Shown here: positions 17,777 to 27,626 of the stretch, in pieces
Layout: each line of letters opens with the position of its first letter
Position numbering within the stretch: position 1 is the first letter of the stretch
NCBI RefSeq assembly: GCF_000970025.1
Contig: NZ_CP009528.1
Location: 620,001-684,000 of the forward strand
Reading direction: 5' to 3'
From: Methanosarcina barkeri MS
GTDB lineage: Archaea; Halobacteriota; Methanosarcinia; Methanosarcinales; Methanosarcinaceae
DNA length: 64,000 nt
Translations under genes and position numbers: made by a program
Notes under the pieces: model-generated
Told to the model about the DNA's origin: nothing
The model's database searches: none
What the model saw: only the letters and a program-made list of their open reading frames with translations

Positions 17777-18322
17777 TTACCTTTTGATGCTTACCAGTAA
17801 TCTTTTTTTCGTTACGGGCACCAGCTTTTTCCACTCTACGACGGCATCTTCGTAGAACTCATATTCGTCTACAGTTTTATCCGATAATTTGCCATCCACT
17901 TCATATACATAAAATCCATCTTCTCCATCCGTAGAGACGACCTTGACTCTGTTCCCCATTTTCTTAACTTCTACTGCAGCCACGCTTTTCAGAGCCTCAA
18001 GCAGAGTAGTACCCTGTTCAACCTCAAGTCTCTTGTTTTCTGCAAAGTGGTCCAGAAATGAATATATATTGTTCAGTTTGATGCCTATCATATGAGTATT
18101 TCCGAACTTTTTTCTTTCTACAAGGTTGGCTTTTTCTAATATTTTTACATGTTTGGCCGCCACAGGCACAGAAATCCCTATTTTTCTTGCCAGGCCGGAT
18201 ATGTGCATATCTCCTTCACTCAGGTGTTCTAGAATTGAGAGGCGTGTGTCGCTTGAAATAGCTTTAAAAAGATTTTCTCTGCCGCCGTTCATTCCATAAC
18301 TCTGCATAGCATTTACTACCAT
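17777..18322 (-). CDS. ArsR-type regulator with DUF4430-like C-terminal domain
   Basis: A 181-residue regulator. Residues about 15-95 form an ArsR-type winged helix (FKAISSDTRLSILEHLSEGDMHISGLARKIGI ... HVKILEKANLVERKK), without obvious metal-binding Cys. Residues about 100-181 resemble DUF4430, the transcobalamin-C-terminal-like fold: GTTLLEALK, then DGFYVYEVDGKLSDKTVDEY, then EDAVVEWKKL. This part is a pattern-level match, not proven. The gene is divergent from the DUF2162-ExbB-DUF2149 operon and is its likely regulator. If the C-terminal domain binds a corrinoid or other tetrapyrrole, the protein would sense the cargo of that system. ATGs at codons 6 and 11 are other possible starts. Confidence 0.8.
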   Translation of the reverse strand: MVVNAMQSYGMNGGRENLFKAISSDTRLSILEHLSEGDMHISGLARKIGISVPVAAKHVKILEKANLVERKKFGNTHMIGIKLNNIYSFLDHFAENKRLEVEQGTTLLEALKSVAAVEVKKMGNRVKVVSTDGEDGFYVYEVDGKLSDKTVDEYEFYEDAVVEWKKLVPVTKKRLLVSIKR

Positions 18323-18705
18323 GATGAACTCTATTTTATCTCAAATACTTATAATTATTGCTTTTGTTAGAACAAGTAAAGTAAACTATCAGATCTTTTC
18401 ATTGCCTTTTTTATATTTAATTTTAACAAATTTACTTTAATTACGGATTTTTCTTTTTCTTTTTTCTATGTCATTGCCTGGTAGCAAAGTAAATTTTTAC
18501 ATAATATTTGTTAAATTCTAACTCTAATTTAATATCAACGTCAACTGCCATCATTTAAAAAAAACTATTTTACTATTTTACTATCTTACAATTTTAACTT
18601 CTACACATAATCTAATTTTAACTTACTCAATTATTATTCATCCTCCCTAAGAAAACAGGGTGGATATAAACTTTTAGTCTAAAAAATGCACTCAATGAGC
18701 CATTG
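18323..18705. other. Divergent intergenic region
   Basis: AT-rich sequence between the ArsR-type regulator and the membrane operon. The only organised signal noticed is the operator-like element near 18336; the remainder, with runs such as TTTTACTATTTTACTATC, shows no gene. Confidence 0.4.
18336..18359. promoter_or_regulatory. Weak copy of the shared operator before the ArsR gene
   Basis: TTATCTCAAATA followed by CTTATAATTATT lies 14 bases upstream of the regulator's start codon. With one gap it resembles the element at 22998-23020 (TTACCCAAATA then CTAACAATTATT). If real, it would allow autoregulation. The AT-rich background makes chance similarity possible. Confidence 0.3.
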
Positions 18706-18749
18706 TTATCCAAAAAGATAACAATTATTACCCAAAAACCAGTTTTTAT
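18706..18749 (+). promoter_or_regulatory. Tandem TTAnCCAAAAA operator of the membrane operon
   Basis: Two boxes, TTATCCAAAAA (18706-18716) and TTACCCAAAAA (18728-18738), lie 22 bases apart start to start, that is two helical turns. Between them is GATAACAATTATTA. The same architecture, with the same 22-base spacing and the shared TAACAATTATTA core, occurs upstream of the CobN-like gene at 22998-23040. The position, 32 bases before the ATG, overlaps the expected promoter, suggesting repression or activation by one regulator. Confidence 0.6.
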
Positions 18750-18780
18750 TTAATTTTACTATAGATGCTCAGAAGGTATT

Positions 18781-19473
18781 ATGGATTCTGCGGCATTAAC
18801 TGTGATTGGAATTTTGATAGGTATCCTTGTTTTTGGAATTAAATCTGGAATAGGATGCGGATTTTCAAACATAAGTACAAGAGAAATTTTTGCAGTTGGA
18901 GGTAGTTATTTTCTTCTGGCCCTTTTATTCGGAAGCATTACTGACCACACAAACTTGGACGCTTTTGAAAAGTTTTCTTCAATGGGCATGGGAATCCATG
19001 TATTTGTTTCCCTGCTTCTGATAGTAACCGGGATTTACACCCAGAAAAAATGGAATTTAGGAAAAGATGTTTCTAGGCACACTTTCCTTGCTATATCCAT
19101 ACCCTGCCCGGTTTGTCTGGCAGCTCTTGCAGTCTCCTGCATACTGCTTTCAGAAAGTCTTAACCTTCCCGGGATAAAAGTAGGGCTACTTGTTGGAGTT
19201 GCTTTTTTTATAGCAGTAGTGGCTTCTTCTTTTCTTTTCAGGTTTGGAAAGGTCCGGTTTGGAAAAACCCCTGAAACTATGGGCAGTGCAATGATGATGA
19301 TAGGGATTTATTATCTCTTAGGAGCTCTGCTTATCCCTGCTTATATACAAACAAAAAAGATGAACCTTGTTTCAACCGGAGGAGGAGAAACAGGAATTAT
19401 GCCTCTTATGGCTTTTGGAGTTATTATCCTTGCAGGTTTTTTCCTGGAACGTATAAGGAGGCATGATCTTTGA
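18781..19473 (+). CDS. DUF2162 multi-helix membrane protein (HmuT-like position)
   Basis: A 230-residue integral membrane protein with about six hydrophobic helices, matching the DUF2162 family of putative transporters. A conserved-looking SIPCPVCLAALAVSC segment near residues 105-120 places Cys residues at the start of a membrane helix. It is the first gene of a three-gene operon; its TGA overlaps the TTG of the ExbB-like gene (TTGA). Families with DUF2162, ExbB/TolQ, DUF2149 and a CobN-like protein recur together, and from memory they occupy the hmuT-U-V-S places of Bacteroidota haem-uptake loci. A role in energised tetrapyrrole or metal uptake is inferred from this grouping. Confidence 0.8.
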   Translation: MDSAALTVIGILIGILVFGIKSGIGCGFSNISTREIFAVGGSYFLLALLFGSITDHTNLDAFEKFSSMGMGIHVFVSLLLIVTGIYTQKKWNLGKDVSRHTFLAISIPCPVCLAALAVSCILLSESLNLPGIKVGLLVGVAFFIAVVASSFLFRFGKVRFGKTPETMGSAMMMIGIYYLLGALLIPAYIQTKKMNLVSTGGGETGIMPLMAFGVIILAGFFLERIRRHDL

Positions 19474-20093
19474 GCCTTATGAATTTATTATCCAATATGA
19501 TGAATGTCTTCTCAACGGCTTTGTTAATTCCTGTAATGTTTCTTCTCACTATTCTCGTATTTGTTTCCTTGATTCAATTAGGAGAATTCCTTTCCGAATA
19601 TACAAAAAGGCGTAGAGACTGGAATAATCTGGAAACTAACTGCAAAAAAATTGAGTGCGAGCTTCAGAATTCAGATTTTTCGGAAGCATCCAGGGCTCTT
19701 GAAAACATCAAACAAAATTACATGGTCACTTCTTTTGCGCGAGATGCTGCAAAATACCTGAAAGAGCGACATTTTCTTGCTATTGAAAGGCTTTCGCAGG
19801 AATATGAAATCAAGATGGCAAAGCGTCTTGAACATACAAAGATAACCTCGACTATCGGTCCCATGCTTGGCCTTATGGGGACGCTTATTCCATTAGGTCC
19901 TGCTCTGATAGGGCTTTCGAAAGGAGAACTCGAAACTCTTGCGCAAAACCTGATGATTGCCTTTGCAACAACGGTTGTAGGGCTTTTTGCGGCTGGAATA
20001 GGCTACGTACTTACACAGGTCAGACGGCGCTGGTACTGGGAAGATATGTCGGATATCGATTATATCCTGGATACAATTGAGGAAAAGAACTGA
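19470..20093 (+). CDS. MotA/TolQ/ExbB proton-channel family protein
   Basis: A 207-residue ExbB/TolQ-like protein with three membrane helices: an N-terminal one (residues about 10-37), and a pair near residues 130-155 and 160-190. The hallmark TolQ/ExbB segment is present as KITSTIGPMLGLMGTLIPLGPAL, followed by AFATTVVGLFAAGIGYVL. ExbB proteins form a pentamer around a partner helix and use the proton gradient to do mechanical work. Start is TTG with AAGGAGG eight bases upstream and a 4-base overlap with the previous stop. In an archaeon without outer membrane or TonB the driven partner must differ, and the DUF2149 protein is the candidate ExbD equivalent. Confidence 0.93.
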   Translation: MSLMNLLSNMMNVFSTALLIPVMFLLTILVFVSLIQLGEFLSEYTKRRRDWNNLETNCKKIECELQNSDFSEASRALENIKQNYMVTSFARDAAKYLKERHFLAIERLSQEYEIKMAKRLEHTKITSTIGPMLGLMGTLIPLGPALIGLSKGELETLAQNLMIAFATTVVGLFAAGIGYVLTQVRRRWYWEDMSDIDYILDTIEEKN

Positions 20094-20126
20094 AGCTTAG
20101 TATCTCTTAGTAATGAGGAAGAAATC

Positions 20127-20573
20127 ATGCGAAAATCCAGAAGATACAGGCGGGCAGGGCTTTTAAAAGACGAAGATGAGCAAAACCCGATGGTCAACGT
20201 TGCAAATGTTTTTGATGTTGCAATGGTCTTTTCCGTAGCTTTGTTGGTTGCGCTTGTTATGTCATATCACCTCCCTGAACTTCTAAGCTCCAGTGAGGAT
20301 TTCACTATTGTCAAAAATCCAGGAGCTCAAGATATGAAGATCGTCATCAAAGAAGAAGGTAAACCCATTGAAGTAATGAACATGACCGATAACATAGGAG
20401 GGGGAACTGGAGAAGCTCTTGGAACGGCTTACAGGCTCGCCGACGGCAAGGTAATCTACGTACCTGATAGTAATGGTACATCTTCTTCATCAGGTGCATC
20501 TACATCATCAGGTACTTCTTCGTCGGGTACGTCTGCATCATCCCGTACAATTAAAGTATCTACTTCACAGTAA
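20127..20573 (+). CDS. DUF2149 protein, single-pass (ExbD-like partner)
   Basis: A 148-residue protein with one membrane helix at about residues 28-50 (VFDVAMVFSVALLVALVMSY). A small domain follows that contains MKIVIKEEGKPIEV and GGGTGEALGTAYRLADGKVIYVP. The topology (short charged N-terminus NPMVNVANVFD, helix, outside domain) and its place directly after the ExbB-like gene argue for an ExbD/TolR-like role. The last 30 residues are a Ser/Thr/Gly low-complexity tail (SSSGASTSSGTSSSG), probably outside the cell and possibly glycosylated. GAGG precedes the ATG. DUF2149 is of unknown biochemical function; the partner role is inferred. Confidence 0.82.
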   Translation: MRKSRRYRRAGLLKDEDEQNPMVNVANVFDVAMVFSVALLVALVMSYHLPELLSSSEDFTIVKNPGAQDMKIVIKEEGKPIEVMNMTDNIGGGTGEALGTAYRLADGKVIYVPDSNGTSSSSGASTSSGTSSSGTSASSRTIKVSTSQ

Positions 20574-20595
20574 TAATTTCAATAAAATAAATATT

Positions 20596-20726
20596 GAGCT
20601 TGTTTCAAAATCCTGACTATTCAGATTTTTGACCAAAAACTGGTATTTCATTTAGCTCTATTGATTCTGGTTTTATACTCCAATGAATTGTTTCGGAGGG
20701 ATTGGAGATAGTTTTGAAACAAGCTC
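20596..20726. mobile_element. 131-bp MITE-like inverted-repeat element
   Basis: A perfect 15-base terminal inverted repeat, GAGCTTGTTTCAAAA at 20596-20610 and its complement at 20712-20726, bounds 101 bases without a gene. It begins 22 bases after the DUF2149 gene. No clear target duplication could be seen. In RNA it would also fold into a long hairpin, so it may serve as operon terminator. The rest of the gap, to 21031, is AT-rich and shows nothing else. Confidence 0.55.
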
Positions 20727-21031
20727 GTTTATTTTTTAAATATAATAAACAATAAGCATTGCGTTTTTTCTTCATACTTATTGTCAAAGTATTAACTTTA
20801 ATACCTAATGAAAAATAATAAAAACTTAATGAAAAATTAGAAAAACAAATAAGAAAAACAGAAACAAAGTTTACTCTTTCCGTGTCCAGACGCGGCATGT
20901 AAATTTTATGATGTTTACGGACAAAGAAGTATTGAGCAAATGGCACATACAAATATATTTGCTTTCTGCTAAGAGTTATTAGCTCTCCCGATAAGGATAT
21001 TCTTTAATAGTAGGGGATTAAACTTATAGCC

Positions 21032-21826
21032 ATGACAGTTCTGGGCATAGTTGGCTGCAGAATATTTGAGGATGAAATTACCCATGTGCTTGCAAACGAT
21101 TCTTATATAGACAGGATATACATCATAGAAAACGAAGAAAACAAAGGTCTTCTGCACAAACTTGAAGCTGAAGGATGTAAACCAGTGTTCCTTCCCTTTT
21201 ACAAAATCAAAGCAGACCTGAGATGTAGTAATAAATTTAGCGTTATTGTCCAGCTTCAGGGGATGGGGCTTCATGTAGATCCTGCCCGGCTTAAAAATGA
21301 AACGTATACAAACGTTGATATTATGTCCAGAAGTGTGGACGGAATTCTACTTTTTTACGGCTCCTGCGGGCAGGCACTTTCCAGGATACAAAGAAATTTT
21401 GCTCATACGAGATGCCCTATAAAATCGCTGCAGGACAGGGACACAGATGAATCAATGAAACCCATTGAAGACTGCATTGCAGCAGCTCTCGGAGGTAACT
21501 CTCATTATCAGGAAATCCTGAAAAGTCACAGTGATACCTTTTTTTTAACTCCTATGTGGGCTGTAAACTGGAAGACCGCATTCAGAGTTGGTGATAAATT
21601 ACTTCTGGGCTTTGAATTTTCTCCTGAATATCTTAGAGAACTTGGTTACCGAAAAGTTGCCCGGGTTAACACAAAACTGTCTTATGAATCGGATTTTGAA
21701 AAAAAAGTTGAAGAATTTGCACATGACTTCGGTTTCGAGGTCATAGAACTGGAAGGAAACACTGAAATAGCGCAAAAATCGTATAACCATATGCGAAACA
21801 TGCTTCTCAGGCCGCTTAAGGTCTGA
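21032..21826 (+). CDS. DUF1638 domain protein
   Basis: A 264-residue soluble protein of the DUF1638 family. Visible conserved-looking parts are the N-terminal LGIVGCRIFEDEI, GILLFYGSCGQAL near residue 110, and RCPIKSLQDRDTDESMKPIEDCIAAALGG near residues 129-157, with several Cys that could bind a metal. DUF1638 genes occur in methanogens, sometimes near corrinoid or methyl-transfer genes, but the function is not known to me. It lies between the ExbB-type operon and the CobN-like gene, separated from both by several hundred bases, so it may be a separate unit or a cytosolic partner of the system. Confidence 0.78.
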   Translation: MTVLGIVGCRIFEDEITHVLANDSYIDRIYIIENEENKGLLHKLEAEGCKPVFLPFYKIKADLRCSNKFSVIVQLQGMGLHVDPARLKNETYTNVDIMSRSVDGILLFYGSCGQALSRIQRNFAHTRCPIKSLQDRDTDESMKPIEDCIAAALGGNSHYQEILKSHSDTFFLTPMWAVNWKTAFRVGDKLLLGFEFSPEYLRELGYRKVARVNTKLSYESDFEKKVEEFAHDFGFEVIELEGNTEIAQKSYNHMRNMLLRPLKV

Positions 21827-22335
21827 ATATATTGTTTATCTTGAAGGCATTTTCAAGTTATTGAAATATTCCCGTTATTGTGTTAATTTCAAGGTGACCA
21901 GCTTTAATTTAAAAACTATATGAAATTCTTCGTATTTTCCCAACGGTAGAACTTTTTTCGTCTTCAGTTACAGGACTATTTTTCAAGAAGAATATCACAT
22001 CTCCAAAATATTAAAAAGCCGTCATTTTTTTAGCTTATATATTTTCAGCTTACATATTTTTTAGGTTACATGATAGTTATTGGGTGACTCTTTAACTTGT
22101 GTAAAATCAGCCTATTGATGTTAATTTCAATATAATTGATAAGTGCAAGTATCAAACATTGAAAAGAGGAATCAATTCCCTCCAATTAAAGAAAATCAAT
22201 TTAAAAACATTTCTCCATTGAATTTTAAGACATGTTTATAGCCGAAAGTTAAGGGTCGAATTCGTCTTTTAGGTACTTGAGATACTTAACTATAAAAATA
22301 CGACAAAATAAAAAATTGAGTAGATATTTTAAGAC
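21827..22335. other. Intergenic region, no gene seen
   Basis: AT-rich sequence downstream of the DUF1638 gene. No open frame, repeat or strong hairpin was recognised before the repeat cluster starting near 22336. Confidence 0.4.
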
Positions 22336-22511
22336 AAATTACTCCCGGAAGACTGCAGTTTTAAGGAGGATATAAAATGGCAAATTACTCCTGGACTGCA
22401 GTTTAGAGAGACTAAAAATAGCAAATTACTCCCGGAAGACTGCAGCTTTAAGGAGGATATAAAATGGCAAATTACTCCTGGAAAACCACAGATTTACGGA
22501 GGTTTATAATG
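22336..22511 (+). repeat. Repeat cluster carrying ribosome-binding sites and starts
   Basis: Variants of AAATTACTCCCGGAAGACTG occur at about 22337, 22382, 22431 and 22468. Two are followed by the same AAGGAGGATATAAAATGGC block (22363-22381 and 22450-22468), and a third related block GGAGGTTTATAATGGC ends near 22512. The arrangement duplicates a translation start together with its ribosome-binding site. The AAATTAC core also resembles the dispersed repeat at 22774 and 60240. Confidence 0.7.
22377..22406 (+). CDS. Possible 9-residue leader peptide
   Basis: ATG with a near-ideal AAGGAGG ribosome-binding site opens a frame encoding MANYSWTAV, ending in TAG. It is repeated with variation 87 bases downstream. 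Whether it is translated is unknown. If TAG were read as pyrrolysine, only two more codons would follow. Confidence 0.3.
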   Translation: MANYSWTAV

Positions 22512-22577
22512 GCGTTTCATAAGACAAATCAAGTAAATCTGATTTGTCTATTAATAAAATTACATCTATATATATAA
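22464..22577 (+). CDS. Possible 37-residue small protein
   Basis: Begins with the same AAGGAGG ribosome-binding site and the same MANYSW start as the 9-residue frame upstream, then continues as KTTDLRRFIMAF and a hydrophobic end (LICLLIKLHLYI). A second start with GGAGG lies in frame at codon 16. No homologue is recognised. It may be a small membrane peptide, a leader, or a gene start left by a decayed element. Confidence 0.3.
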   Translation: MANYSWKTTDLRRFIMAFHKTNQVNLICLLIKLHLYI

Positions 22578-22773
22578 ACATTTCGTAGTTCTATGACATT
22601 ACCACATTTAATAAAAAAGAACAATACAAGTTAAAGTGAAAAAAGATATTATATAAAAATATTAATATAATACAAAAAAGAAAAGATGCTTAGAAAATAA
22701 GCAATTTCATTTATTGCAAAGTTATCCAATATGTTCAATTATGATAATTTTATAAGAGTTTCGCTGATTTATG

Positions 22774-22830
22774 GGCGGAAGAATAATGTCTCTTCGCTAT
22801 TTTGAGTGGGTAATTTACATTTAAGTTCTA
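22774..22830 (-). repeat. Dispersed repeat with ACCCACTCAAAATAGCGAAG-type core
   Basis: On the minus strand the sequence AAATTACCCACTC, then AAAATAGCGAAGA, closely matches 60240-60285 (plus strand) and more loosely 60410-60440. In one frame each encodes KLPTxNSEE. It is probably an end piece of a mobile element scattered in intergenic DNA. The flanking bases 22578-22773 and 22831-22997 hold no gene. Confidence 0.55.
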
Positions 22831-22997
22831 AATCTGACCTAACACATATACATGTGAAAAGATTCTCGTATAAATCACATTCAATATAGAGGATTATCTG
22901 GTTTATGTAGTTGTTTTTCAACTGAAAAAGTATCTTCAACCCTACAAAATAGAGAGAAATCATAGTATATTACGTAAAAACACCATCGAATCCGTTT

Positions 22998-23040
22998 TTA
23001 CCCAAATAACTAACAATTATTAGCCAAAAACTGTGTTTTA
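22998..23040 (+). promoter_or_regulatory. Tandem TTAnCCAAAwA operator of the CobN-like gene
   Basis: Boxes TTACCCAAATA (22998-23008) and TTAGCCAAAAA (23020-23030), 22 bases apart start to start, with CTAACAATTATT between them and GTGTTTTA after. This mirrors 18706-18749 in box sequence, spacing and order. It lies about 260 bases before the CobN-like start, so a leader transcript is likely. The leader (23041-23297) has no clear structure I could identify. Confidence 0.6.
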
Positions 23041-23297
23041 TGTATCTTATTCCCTAATGCTCCGAGTGTTGAATCTATCGTACAGAGTGGCTACTCATTG
23101 GATTTAGGAAGTTCTGTATTTTAATTACGTGTTAAAATCAAGAGCTTCCGGGTTCATTTTTGATGTCTAATAGCAGTTTCTGTATCATTTTTCAGATTCA
23201 TACTCTTTGATAATAAAATCACTCTGTGGGCCAAGCATCCTGATTATTTTTCTCACTGGGTGCTCCAGGGTTCATGATACATTGTTCTGGGGATAAG

Positions 23298-26200
23298 ATG
23301 CGTACGGCACAAGGTAGATTATTGGTTTTATGTGCAGTGGTCCTTTTACTGCTAGCACAGAACGTATCGGCTGATGAAAACCATGTAAATATTACTTTTA
23401 TCTGTTATGATGGGAGTGCCCTTGCTGCAGCAGAGCAGTCCAATCCATATAATGCAAGTATAAATGTAACATATATTTCGGGGTATTCCGATTTTAGCAA
23501 TGTCACTTTTGAAAACCAGGATGTAATATTTACTTATATGCTCTGGTCGCAGTTCAAAGATATCGGAGACGACCTTGAAAGTGCTCACGAAAACGGGACT
23601 GCACTCATAGATATTACTTCTGCAATAGATACAACATACATTAATACCTCAAGTTACGATAAGATTTTTTCCGGGACTACCCCCTATAATTCTACTGAAG
23701 AAAAATTCTTCTATAATATGGGTTCTAGAGGAGTTCTGAAGAAAAACACTGAGAACTTCCTTATATATCTCGCAAAAACTTATGGAGATAAACCCGAGCT
23801 TACGAAAGACTGGGTTTATGAAGATCCTATAGAATTCCCTGAAGCAGCTATTTATCATCCGGATGCTCGTTCTTCTACTAACGAATCTCAGCCAGACTGG
23901 TTTGAAAATACTACTGATTACCTTGAATGGTACTCTAACTCAACTAACTCAAATTCAACTAACTCAAATGAATCACGGCATATTTACGACAAGAGCAGAC
24001 CCACTATAGGGATATGGTTCCATGCTTCCGATTATACCGGTGACAACCTTGAAGTCATAGATGCTCTTATCCGTGATCTGGAAGGAAAAGGATGCAACGT
24101 TATTGCAGGTTTTGATACTTTTAACGATATTCATAAGTTTTACTTTGACGAAAATGGAGAATCTCTTGTCCAGTGCGTAATTTCTCTTAAGAGTTTCCGT
24201 TTGAATTATGATGATCCTGATAAAGGTGTACAGGAGCTTGAAGACCTTGACGTTCCTGTCCTCACGGGATTGGTTGTTACAAATCCTGCTAATTCGACTG
24301 ACATAGCTGATAGTAATAGAGGTATCCCCAGTGAAGAGGTTGTATACAAAACTCTGCTCCCGAGCATTGATGGGATTTTCGAGTACATTGTAATAGGAAT
24401 TGATAATTATGATTCCGCAACAGGTGAAAGCAACTATGAACCTCTGCCTTCTCAGATTGACTGGATGGTAAATAGGTCGATTAATTGGGCAAACCTGAAG
24501 TTAGAGGAAAACGAAGACAAGAAAGTAGCTGTGATTTACTATAATTATCCTTCAGGAAAGGATAATATTGTAGCAAATTATCTCAACTCCACCCAGAGCA
24601 TGTTTGAACTTCTTAATGCAATGAATAAAAGTGGCTATGAGGTCTCCGGAATCCCGGAAAACAGTAGTAAGCTCATGGAGATGCTTCAAGCACAGGGCAT
24701 CAATGTTGGTTCCTGGGCTCCTGGAGTTCTGAATGGAATGGTGGAAAACAGGACTGAGTGGGGCCTTCAACTCATACCTATGGATACCTATAAAGAGTGG
24801 TTTGAGTCTGAAATTCCCGAAAATCTGAGAGCCAATGTAACAGCTGAATGGGGAGAACCCTGGTCCGAAGATCTGCCTCAAAATAAGAGTGTTATGATCT
24901 ATGAGAATGAAACCGGTAAATACATTGTAATTCCAACGGTGCGTTTCGGAAATGTCTGGCTCATGCCTCAGCCTGCCAGAGGTACAGGACAAAATAATGA
25001 CACCCTTTACCACAGCAACGTTGTACCTCCCACACATCAGTACATAGCTTTCTATCTCTGGCTAAACCATGAATTCCAGCCTGATGCTCTTATTCATATG
25101 GGCACTCACGGTACGCACGAATGGCTCCCGGGCCCCACTTACGGCATGAACCGGACTTCAGACTGGTCTCCTCTCCTGCTGCAGGATATTCCGAATATCT
25201 ATCCCTATATTGTTGCCAACGTGGGAGAAGGAATAACTGCGGAGTACAGGGGTAATGCTCTAATTATTGACCATTTGACTCCAACCCTTGAACGCGGTGG
25301 GCTTTATGGAGATTTGCTAAACCTTTCAACTGATGTGGAGGAGTATTATGACCCCGGGATTTCTTCTCAGACAAGAGCAGGATATCAGAAGGCCATAGTA
25401 AATGAGATAATATCACTCAACCTCAGTGTTGATCTGGGAATAGAAAATGTAACCGCTCTTCAAGACTACAATGAAACGGAGTTTGGAAATTTCATTAAAA
25501 ACACTCTTCATGAATACCTGGAAGACGTAGGAAATGAAAATATCCCATACGGTATGCATATCCTCAGCCATGTTCCTACAACGAATATGACATATCCTGA
25601 AAGTGATGAACTTACCGGAATGGTAAGGGCTATGCTTGGAGGAAGCTTTGAGGATAATATCACTGCTGCTTTCTACCCTGAATCTTCGTATCCTCTCGGA
25701 ATTCCGTTAAACGATACAAAAGTTACCAAACTTGTCTGGGAAGTTGTAACCAATAATACAAGCGTTTCTCAGGCGCAGACTGCAGTTTATGGGAAAACTA
25801 ACAGCACAGTTGCACTTGATCTTGAACAGGGGCTGGATTATAAAGACAGGCTTCTTAACTGCGATGTGGAGATTGACAGAATTCTTTCAGCTCTGAACGG
25901 AGGATTTATTCCACCAGGCTCAGGGCTGGACCCTATAATGAATCCAGATGCAGTACCTACAGGGCGCAACTATTACAGCATAAATTCGAAGCTCTATCCT
26001 TCAGAAGCAACCTGGGAAGTTGGAAAGTCTCTTGCAATCCAGATGCTTGAGGACTATTACAATGAACACGGGGAATACCCTAAAAAAGTTTCATTCTCAA
26101 GGTTCGGGGTGGAGTTTATTGCGGACCACGGGACTCTGGAAGCCGAAGTGCTCTACCTGCTTGGAGTAAAACCTGTATGGGACGAGTACGGGTATGTAAC

Positions 26201-27626
26201 CGGAGTTGAAGCTATCCCTGAAGATGAACTATTGCCAAATTATGATACTTCAAAGCCTGGAAGGCCGCGTATTGATATCGTCTATACTACCGCAGGTATG
26301 AGGGATGCTTTCCCGGATAAGATCAAAATGATAGACAGTGCTGTGAAGCTTGCAAGCTCTCTTCCTGGCGTAAACTATCAAAACTATGTAAATCAGAGCT
26401 CTCTTACACTCTACGATTCCCTAATATCTGAAGGGTATGACAACGAGACTGCAACAAAACTCTCTACAATGCGCTGCTTTGCAGTAATGGACGGTACTTA
26501 TGATATAGGGGTCTCAGATGCTATCAGTGCAAGCGGGTCATGGGATAATGAAGAAGATATTGCAAACGTATACCTGGACAAGATGGGATACGCTTACGGA
26601 GAAGATTTCTGGGGAATACAGTCCAGAGCACTCCTCGAAGGCAACCTGAAAAACGTTGAAGCGTCAGTACATTCGTCCTCTTCAAATCTTTATGACTCCC
26701 TTGATAACGATGACCTTTTCCAGTACTTCGGCGGCATGAACCTGGCAACTAGGTATCTTAGCGGCAATACTCCGGAGATGTATATTTCGGACACAAGTAA
26801 CTCGGATGGGGCTCAGATGTTGGGAATGCAAGAGTATCTCAGCAAGGACTTGCGGGCCAGATATTTCAACGACAAATGGATTGAAGGAATGAAAAACTCC
26901 GGATACTCAGGCGGCAGCATGATGTCCGAATTTGTGGACAACCTCTTTGGATGGGAGGTAAGTGACCCTGACCTTGTGGACGATACAGTCTGGCAAGAAG
27001 TGTATGAAACCTATGTAAATGATCCTTCTATGAAAGAATGGTTCAAGCAGAATAATCCCAGTGCTTACCAGTCTGTAACAGCGAGAATGCTTGAGGCAGT
27101 CAGGCACGATTACTGGGCACCCTCAGATGATGTTATCGAAAGCCTTGCAAAGGAATATGAGGAGTCTGTGGCCGAGAATGGGGCTTCGTGTTGTCACCAT
27201 ACCTGTGGAAATCCCCTGCTTCATGAGTTTGTAAGTGGAAAGGTATCTGTTCCGGGCTACTCCGAGCAAATAGAAGCTGCAACTAAAGCCGAAACTCTGG
27301 AGACCACAGAAGAGACCCAGAGTAGTAGCAGTGGTAGTCATCACGATCATAATACTGGAAACGCTACCGTAGTACCAAAAGCCAGTTCATCCAGTAACCA
27401 GACGTCTCAAGAGTCGGACGGAGGATATGGTACAGATACTTCTGAACCTGATCCTGGAGTTCAGAAATCCTCAGATACTGATTATGTTGAAGGGTATGAG
27501 ATGCAGAAAGATTCTGCTGAAGAACCTGAGAATAGTGGTTTCTCATTTTCAGGATCTGATGTTATCGGAATTCTCTTTGTAGTGGTAGTCGCGGGTGGAA
27601 TTTACCTGGGTATGAGAAAGAGATAA
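23298..27626 (+). CDS. Secreted, membrane-anchored CobN-like (HmuS-like) chelatase-family protein
   Basis: A 1442-residue protein. From the ATG at 23298 (GGGGAT upstream) it opens with a clean signal peptide (hydrophobic VLCAVVLLLLA, cleavage near VSA-DE). An ATG 24 bases upstream is in frame but poorly placed. The body is the class-I chelatase large-subunit fold of CobN/ChlH, with HMGTHGTHEWLPG near residue 600. CobN usually has a Lys after LPG where this has Pro. Many NxS/T sequons fit an extracellular location. Near residue 1297 is CCHHTCGNPLLHEF, then a Ser-rich linker with SHHDHN, and a C-terminal membrane helix (VIGILFVVVVAGGIYLG) with a basic end. Cytosolic CobN enzymes insert cobalt and have no such anchor. 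HmuS-type relatives remove iron from haem. It is probably a tetrapyrrole-handling enzyme on the outer face of the membrane; the substrate is unknown. Confidence 0.85.
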   Translation: MRTAQGRLLVLCAVVLLLLAQNVSADENHVNITFICYDGSALAAAEQSNPYNASINVTYISGYSDFSNVTFENQDVIFTYMLWSQFKDIGDDLESAHENGTALIDITSAIDTTYINTSSYDKIFSGTTPYNSTEEKFFYNMGSRGVLKKNTENFLIYLAKTYGDKPELTKDWVYEDPIEFPEAAIYHPDARSSTNESQPDWFENTTDYLEWYSNSTNSNSTNSNESRHIYDKSRPTIGIWFHASDYTGDNLEVIDALIRDLEGKGCNVIAGFDTFNDIHKFYFDENGESLVQCVISLKSFRLNYDDPDKGVQELEDLDVPVLTGLVVTNPANSTDIADSNRGIPSEEVVYKTLLPSIDGIFEYIVIGIDNYDSATGESNYEPLPSQIDWMVNRSINWANLKLEENEDKKVAVIYYNYPSGKDNIVANYLNSTQSMFELLNAMNKSGYEVSGIPENSSKLMEMLQAQGINVGSWAPGVLNGMVENRTEWGLQLIPMDTYKEWFESEIPENLRANVTAEWGEPWSEDLPQNKSVMIYENETGKYIVIPTVRFGNVWLMPQPARGTGQNNDTLYHSNVVPPTHQYIAFYLWLNHEFQPDALIHMGTHGTHEWLPGPTYGMNRTSDWSPLLLQDIPNIYPYIVANVGEGITAEYRGNALIIDHLTPTLERGGLYGDLLNLSTDVEEYYDPGISSQTRAGYQKAIVNEIISLNLSVDLGIENVTALQDYNETEFGNFIKNTLHEYLEDVGNENIPYGMHILSHVPTTNMTYPESDELTGMVRAMLGGSFEDNITAAFYPESSYPLGIPLNDTKVTKLVWEVVTNNTSVSQAQTAVYGKTNSTVALDLEQGLDYKDRLLNCDVEIDRILSALNGGFIPPGSGLDPIMNPDAVPTGRNYYSINSKLYPSEATWEVGKSLAIQMLEDYYNEHGEYPKKVSFSRFGVEFIADHGTLEAEVLYLLGVKPVWDEYGYVTGVEAIPEDELLPNYDTSKPGRPRIDIVYTTAGMRDAFPDKIKMIDSAVKLASSLPGVNYQNYVNQSSLTLYDSLISEGYDNETATKLSTMRCFAVMDGTYDIGVSDAISASGSWDNEEDIANVYLDKMGYAYGEDFWGIQSRALLEGNLKNVEASVHSSSSNLYDSLDNDDLFQYFGGMNLATRYLSGNTPEMYISDTSNSDGAQMLGMQEYLSKDLRARYFNDKWIEGMKNSGYSGGSMMSEFVDNLFGWEVSDPDLVDDTVWQEVYETYVNDPSMKEWFKQNNPSAYQSVTARMLEAVRHDYWAPSDDVIESLAKEYEESVAENGASCCHHTCGNPLLHEFVSGKVSVPGYSEQIEAATKAETLETTEETQSSSSGSHHDHNTGNATVVPKASSSSNQTSQESDGGYGTDTSEPDPGVQKSSDTDYVEGYEMQKDSAEEPENSGFSFSGSDVIGILFVVVVAGGIYLGMRKR

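Follow-up and report, generated by a model that had tools for sequence, protein, structure and literature searches.

We propose, with confidence somewhat better than even, that a locus of the methanogen Methanosarcina barkeri MS represents an archaeal branch of the modules built around extracytoplasmic CobN-like proteins (HmuS/BtuS), and that it would serve to acquire corrinoids or their cobalt. The locus lies in what we call the window, the whole 64,000-nucleotide stretch analysed (positions 620001-684000 of the 4.57 Mb genome), and coordinates below are those of the window unless another locus is named. On the plus strand, the gene of a polytopic DUF2162 membrane protein (18781..19473; PF09930, E 1.4e-67) overlaps by 4 bp that of an ExbB/TolQ-type motor subunit with a TTG start (19470..20093; MotA_ExbB, PF01618, 3.1e-11), which is followed after 33 bp by the gene of a single-pass DUF2149 protein homologous to HmuV (20127..20573; PF09919, 9.7e-33). 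The gene of the CobN-like protein, on the same strand (23298..27626; PF02514, 1025 bits), starts 2.7 kb downstream of the DUF2149 gene with a DUF1638 gene in between (21032..21826, plus strand; PF07796, 6e-38), and is therefore considered a separate transcription unit. The four module genes are where the preliminary description of this DNA had put them, and the Pfam matches agree with the families it had named. It had also seen no outer-membrane partner, and indeed no HmuY or HmuR ORF was found in the part of the window from 12 to 34 kb.

Membership of the DUF1638 protein in the module is uncertain: one further genus has its gene beside CobN (36% identity, L124), and fragments occur in another two loci (L118, L121). 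The gap 20574-23273 was searched for the remnant of a second CobN gene and none was found. Between the DUF1638 and CobN-like genes, a 46-bp unit that includes an ATG and a GGAGG resembling a Shine-Dalgarno sequence occurs four times in tandem (22335-22513); matches to the repeat unit that we tested were confined to loci of the Methanosarcina barkeri MS genome.

The two transcription units are preceded by the same operator-like element, once upstream of the DUF2162 gene (18706..18739, plus strand; TTATCCAAAAAGATAACAATTATTACCCAAAAAC) and once upstream of the CobN-like gene (22998..23031, plus strand). Its pattern, TTAYCC-n-TAAC-n-TTANCCAAAAAC, includes the palindrome GTTATC-N6-GATAAC, and its exact core is found only twice in the 4.57 Mb genome, both times in this locus. 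Degenerate copies occupy equivalent positions in relatives (L117-L123 and L132). An ArsR-type regulator gene (17777..18322, minus strand; Pfam HTH_5, 4.6e-09) is divergent from the cassette formed by the DUF2162, ExbB and DUF2149 genes, and is kept beside it in seven genomes of the same genus and in one other genus, with orthologues 78-90% identical. The C-terminal domain of this regulator bears a weak resemblance to DUF4430, but its assignment to that family was rejected (E 0.0018, below the cut-off, and no confirmation by hhalign). An Rfam search across the locus for RNA elements gave no match, hence no riboswitch in the window.

The four genes form a conserved module. Among 295 genomes sampled across the phylum, 93 carry DUF2149, and in 40 archaeal DUF2149 loci, whose flanks were read for about 10 kb each way, ExbB adjoined DUF2149 every time (40/40), DUF2162 was present in 36/40 and a CobN-like gene was nearby in about 35/40 (32 on recount). 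When two listings were compared, 89 of the 93 genomes with DUF2149 also carried PF02514, and the four genomes of the own family that are devoid of DUF2149 are likewise devoid of PF02514. Such linkage is far beyond chance and bears out the earlier expectation that it would recur in other genomes. It might still be argued that the CobN-like protein has nothing to do with the neighbouring motor, the latter serving for instance the S-layer or envelope, given that in this genome the CobN-like gene lies in a unit of its own 2.7 kb away. However, the linkage is tight and conserved in archaea and bacteria, some relatives lack both, and the same element precedes the two units, which makes this very improbable. 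In other archaeal families (L153, L154, L155), ExbB-DUF2149 pairs without DUF2162 sit beside substrate-binding proteins, the one in L155 being BtuF-like.

In several archaeal loci (L119, L122, L129, L132, L133), two divergent surface CobN genes stand in tandem beside the cassette; Methanosarcinaceae-type genomes differ in keeping one or both of them, and the window retains the B copy. Three PF02514 genes are present in the genome, namely the CobN-like gene of the window, a second surface protein (L004:6815-11494), which has the same C-terminal anchor, and a cytosolic CobN (L005), in whose vicinity are ECF-type transport genes and an AAA+/VWA gene of the ChlI/ChlD-like kind. A copy of the shared element with 3 mismatches is located about 350 bp upstream of the second surface paralogue, and a secreted protein encoded about 4 kb from that paralogue (L004 15339-16133) matches DUF4430 (E 7e-10), a transcobalamin-type domain.

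Several features place the 1450-aa CobN-like protein at the cell surface. Its ORF opens at 23274, and the likelier start is the ATG at 23298, which gives a predicted signal peptide (23298-23372, plus strand; N-terminus MRTAQGRLLVLCAVVLLLLAQNVSA). The PF02514 domain (23739-27134, plus strand; residues 156-1287) is followed by a C-terminal membrane helix (27552-27611, plus strand) that ends in an RKR tail. Moreover, the protein contains 38 N-glycosylation sequons vs 16 expected from composition, when the cytosolic CobN paralogue contains 4 vs 5.9 expected. The sequon excess and the helix with its RKR tail argue for a surface-anchored protein, in keeping with the signal peptide and membrane helix announced in the preliminary description.

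Two CobN trees, a quick one of 67 rows and one of 49 rows under a mixture model, with bacterial modules taken exclusively from plasmids, united all extracytoplasmic CobN-like proteins in one clade (100/99), apart from bacterial and archaeal cytosolic CobN. The window protein was thus outside the cytosolic cobaltochelatases, as had been anticipated. Within the extracytoplasmic group, HmuS formed a separate clade (100/100) on a long branch, and the window protein fell outside it (98/98; 99 in the quick tree), grouping with other surface proteins of archaea and with six plasmid-borne modules from bacteria. By these trees, the CobN-like protein is a member of a sister clade of HmuS, in which some of the bacterial modules have cobalamin riboswitches. 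The preliminary description had spoken of an HmuSTUV-like system; S, U and V stand as homologues, ExbB and DUF2149 corresponding to HmuU and HmuV, but the CobN-like protein is not HmuS proper and no counterpart of T is present, as DUF2162 is not HmuT by HMM or hhalign.

The catalytic and heme-site residues of HmuS have been published (PMC12583661), so that the possibility of an HmuS-like removal of iron from external heme can be weighed residue by residue. The equivalent of catalytic His538 is retained in a GTHG motif (25101..25112, plus strand); it is kept, however, in nearly all rows of every group, so that it does not discriminate HmuS from the others. At the positions of His1209 and Glu1212, within LSLDHxxEFMGG in HmuS, the window protein has the CobN-type pair Asp/Gln (SLDNDDLFQYFGG; 26697..26735, plus strand). 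HmuS has His and Glu in 10/10 rows, whereas Asp and Gln are found in 4/4 bacterial CobN and in 17/22 and 15/22 archaeal surface proteins, respectively. The axial heme ligands Met79 and His254 (Met in 9/10 and His in 10/10 HmuS) are replaced by Leu and Ser in what is a loose N-terminal alignment, and Gln1198 and Trp1202 are also absent. The Met-rich insertion of HmuS, of about 120 residues, is missing as well: about 112 residues separate the aligned blocks vs about 258 in HmuS, with no Met-rich stretch between those two blocks. After the CobN domain, a CCHHTC motif (27189..27206, plus strand), a candidate metal-binding site, is shared by 21/22 archaeal surface proteins and by 0/28 cytosolic CobN/ChlH; its counterpart is a two-Cys version in HmuS and ACCDHTC in T. 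lovleyi. The best PDB match of the window protein is HmuS (475 bits vs 421 for CobN), and this, together with the retained His538 equivalent and with the extracytoplasmic clade and the motor genes that both have in common, speaks for heme de-chelation. Against it stand the separate HmuS clade, the residues and insertion just listed, the missing HmuY, HmuR and HmuT, and the cobalt/corrinoid contexts of relatives described below, and we regard it as unlikely.

What surrounds the module in relatives points to cobalt or corrinoids. In T. lovleyi, TBDT-DUF2162-ExbB-DUF2149-CobN is immediately preceded by two cobalamin riboswitches in tandem, and the neighbours of the module include cobT, bzaF and cobyric acid synthase. 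On a Comamonadaceae plasmid, a cobalamin riboswitch likewise comes directly before ExbB-DUF2149-CobN, and Azospirillum has one next to DUF2149; such an element was found beside the module in 3/7 DUF2149 plasmid loci scanned, and in 0/7 Bacteroidota heme hmu loci. In archaea, one operon reads CbiM-CbiQ-CbiO-DUF2162-ExbB-DUF2149-CobN-CbiT (L150) and two others contain CobN-CbiT-CbiL-CbiF (L145, L151), with identities given by NCBIfam; all three come from uncultured organisms. BtuF-like proteins are neighbours of the module in L153-L155 and L165. Altogether, cobalt/corrin genes were near 12/60 cassettes vs 0/20 control contigs, a modest difference (one-sided p ~0.02), and these contexts come from uncultured relatives and bacteria, no cobalt or corrin gene adjoining the cassette in the genus of the window. 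Because of the cobalamin riboswitches and of the CbiMQO and CbiT-L-F operons around relatives, heme, which the preliminary description had listed first among possible cargoes, is not favoured, and its corrinoid alternative fares better: for the archaeal clade, cobalt or a corrinoid is the best supported cargo, and likelier than heme. The CbiMQO neighbours would favour released Co2+, and the cobT/bzaF and BtuF-like neighbours a whole corrinoid.

Other contexts raise the possibility of nickel. On a Runella slithyformis plasmid (L166:1803-16061), genes for a TBDT, a membrane protein, ExbB, DUF2149 and a CobN-like protein lie within a hypABF-hypCDE cluster, the permease slot being taken by a weakly NicO/DsbD_2-like membrane protein, which suggests a nickel version of the module; the module thus seems to serve different metals. 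NikR is encoded near the Azospirillum module. Methanogens have a high nickel need, and the window module could accordingly supply F430, hydrogenase and CODH by capturing chelates or tetrapyrroles of nickel. Nevertheless, nickel contexts were fewer than cobalamin riboswitches and Cbi operons in the loci read, and the Asp/Gln pair is CobN-type; we therefore give this alternative a low probability.

With respect to the motor, the channel threonines of ExbB (Thr148 and Thr181, E. coli numbering) are kept in 135/136 and 130/136 sequences. The genome yielded no other MotA/TolQ/ExbB gene. No ExbD (PF02472) was found there and DUF2149 itself gives no PF02472 match, which leaves DUF2149 as the only evident partner. 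Asp30, at the start of the sole membrane helix of DUF2149 (128/129), aligns on D25 of ExbD and D23 of TolR, with an hhalign E of 0.11 that is not significant; the predicted DUF2149 model was too poor for a structure search. We propose that DUF2149 is an ExbD-like partner of ExbB. HmuU and HmuV have already been likened to ExbB and ExbD (PMC10100974), and HmuV has been said to have no known homologue (PMC13227078). T. lovleyi has its own exbB/exbD/tonB beside the module, in addition to ExbB/DUF2149, and it is therefore unlikely that ExbB/DUF2149 merely energises an outer-membrane receptor. As there is no outer membrane in the archaeon, the target of the motor is probably the CobN-like protein or DUF2162.

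DUF2162 has an invariant PCPxC, a near-invariant GCG and a near-invariant Cys26, and its AF2 model (pLDDT 81) shows eight helices and no significant PDB match. It may be a permease or an electron or metal conduit. The layout of Cys26 and PCPxC could suit a transmembrane thiol/metal relay. Homology to CcdA/DsbD could not be demonstrated, the proposal of a UreH/NicO/CcdA-like protein received no support, and identity with HmuT was rejected (0/80 Bacteroidota loci by HMM; hhalign E 0.47).

In the scenario of corrinoid or cobalt acquisition, the surface-anchored CobN-like protein would bind the tetrapyrrole ring on the outer side of the membrane. Together, ExbB and DUF2149 would form an ion-driven motor, its mechanical energy replacing the AAA+ ATPases of cytosolic class-I chelatases, with the CobN-like protein or DUF2162 as its target. 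The intact corrinoid, or Co2+ after demetallation, would then cross via DUF2162 or via CbiMQO/BtuCD encoded elsewhere. A broader version, which we advance only tentatively, is that ExbB/DUF2149 replaces the CobST/ChlID AAA+ motor for extracytoplasmic class-I chelatases in general, and that the archaeal surface version demetallates or imports corrinoids without an outer membrane. The chemistry might also run in the opposite direction, the protein inserting metal into scavenged metal-free rings instead of removing or importing it, for which CobN and ChlH, which insert metals, offer a family precedent and the CobN-type residues an argument. Yet no AAA+/VWA partner is adjacent, whereas the cytosolic paralogue has one in its vicinity, and metal-free substrate is expected to be scarce outside the cell, so that we hold insertion to be improbable.

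Archaeal HmuS and HmuV homologues were noticed earlier without a role (PMC12583661; PMC10100974 Table 3), and that of the archaeal HmuS/CobN homologues has been called unclear (PMC12583661). With this locus, these homologues gain a set of partners, a probable class of cargo and a host genus amenable to genetics. As far as the literature searched shows, the archaeal module with DUF2162, the operator-like element, the placement outside HmuS, the CCHHTC motif and the cobalt/corrin contexts are new, and no published work on DUF2162 was found there. Furthermore, the motor is here uncoupled from any outer membrane: should ExbB/DUF2149 prove functional in an archaeon, the job of powering HmuR assumed for them in Bacteroidota needs re-testing. 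HmuV has been suggested to be diagnostic of heme transport (PMC10100974); the archaeal locus speaks against this.

Four known systems can be compared with the archaeal module. Like HmuS-HmuT-HmuU-HmuV of Bacteroidota (PMC12583661, PMC10100974, PMC13227078), it combines a membrane-anchored extracytoplasmic CobN-like protein with ExbB (HmuU) and DUF2149 (HmuV), but it has DUF2162 instead of HmuT, neither HmuY nor HmuR and no outer membrane, and its CobN-like protein has CCHHTC where HmuS has two Cys and is devoid of the HmuS residues and Met-rich insertion. Cytosolic CobN, including the archaeal one with its ChlI/ChlD-like partner, shares PF02514 and, in bacteria, the active-site Asp/Gln, whereas the window protein is exported, sequon-rich, membrane-anchored, free of an AAA+ partner and outside the cytosolic clade. 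With ExbBD, TolQR and MotAB, the module has in common the channel threonines of ExbB and a single-pass partner with an invariant Asp starting its membrane helix; in contrast, HMM comparison does not identify DUF2149 as ExbD, and TonB, TolA and an outer membrane are absent. BtuS as a third CobN type dates to Rodionov 2003, as cited in PMC6460266. The bacterial BtuS or B12-riboswitch Hmu-like operons are also similar, as T. lovleyi has these four genes in identical order behind its two cobalamin riboswitches and BtuS-type proteins, like that of the window, are exported, membrane-anchored and accompanied by ExbB/DUF2149; the archaeal locus differs from them in its surface setting, in having no TonB receptor, and in using a protein regulator and an operator-like element in place of the riboswitch.
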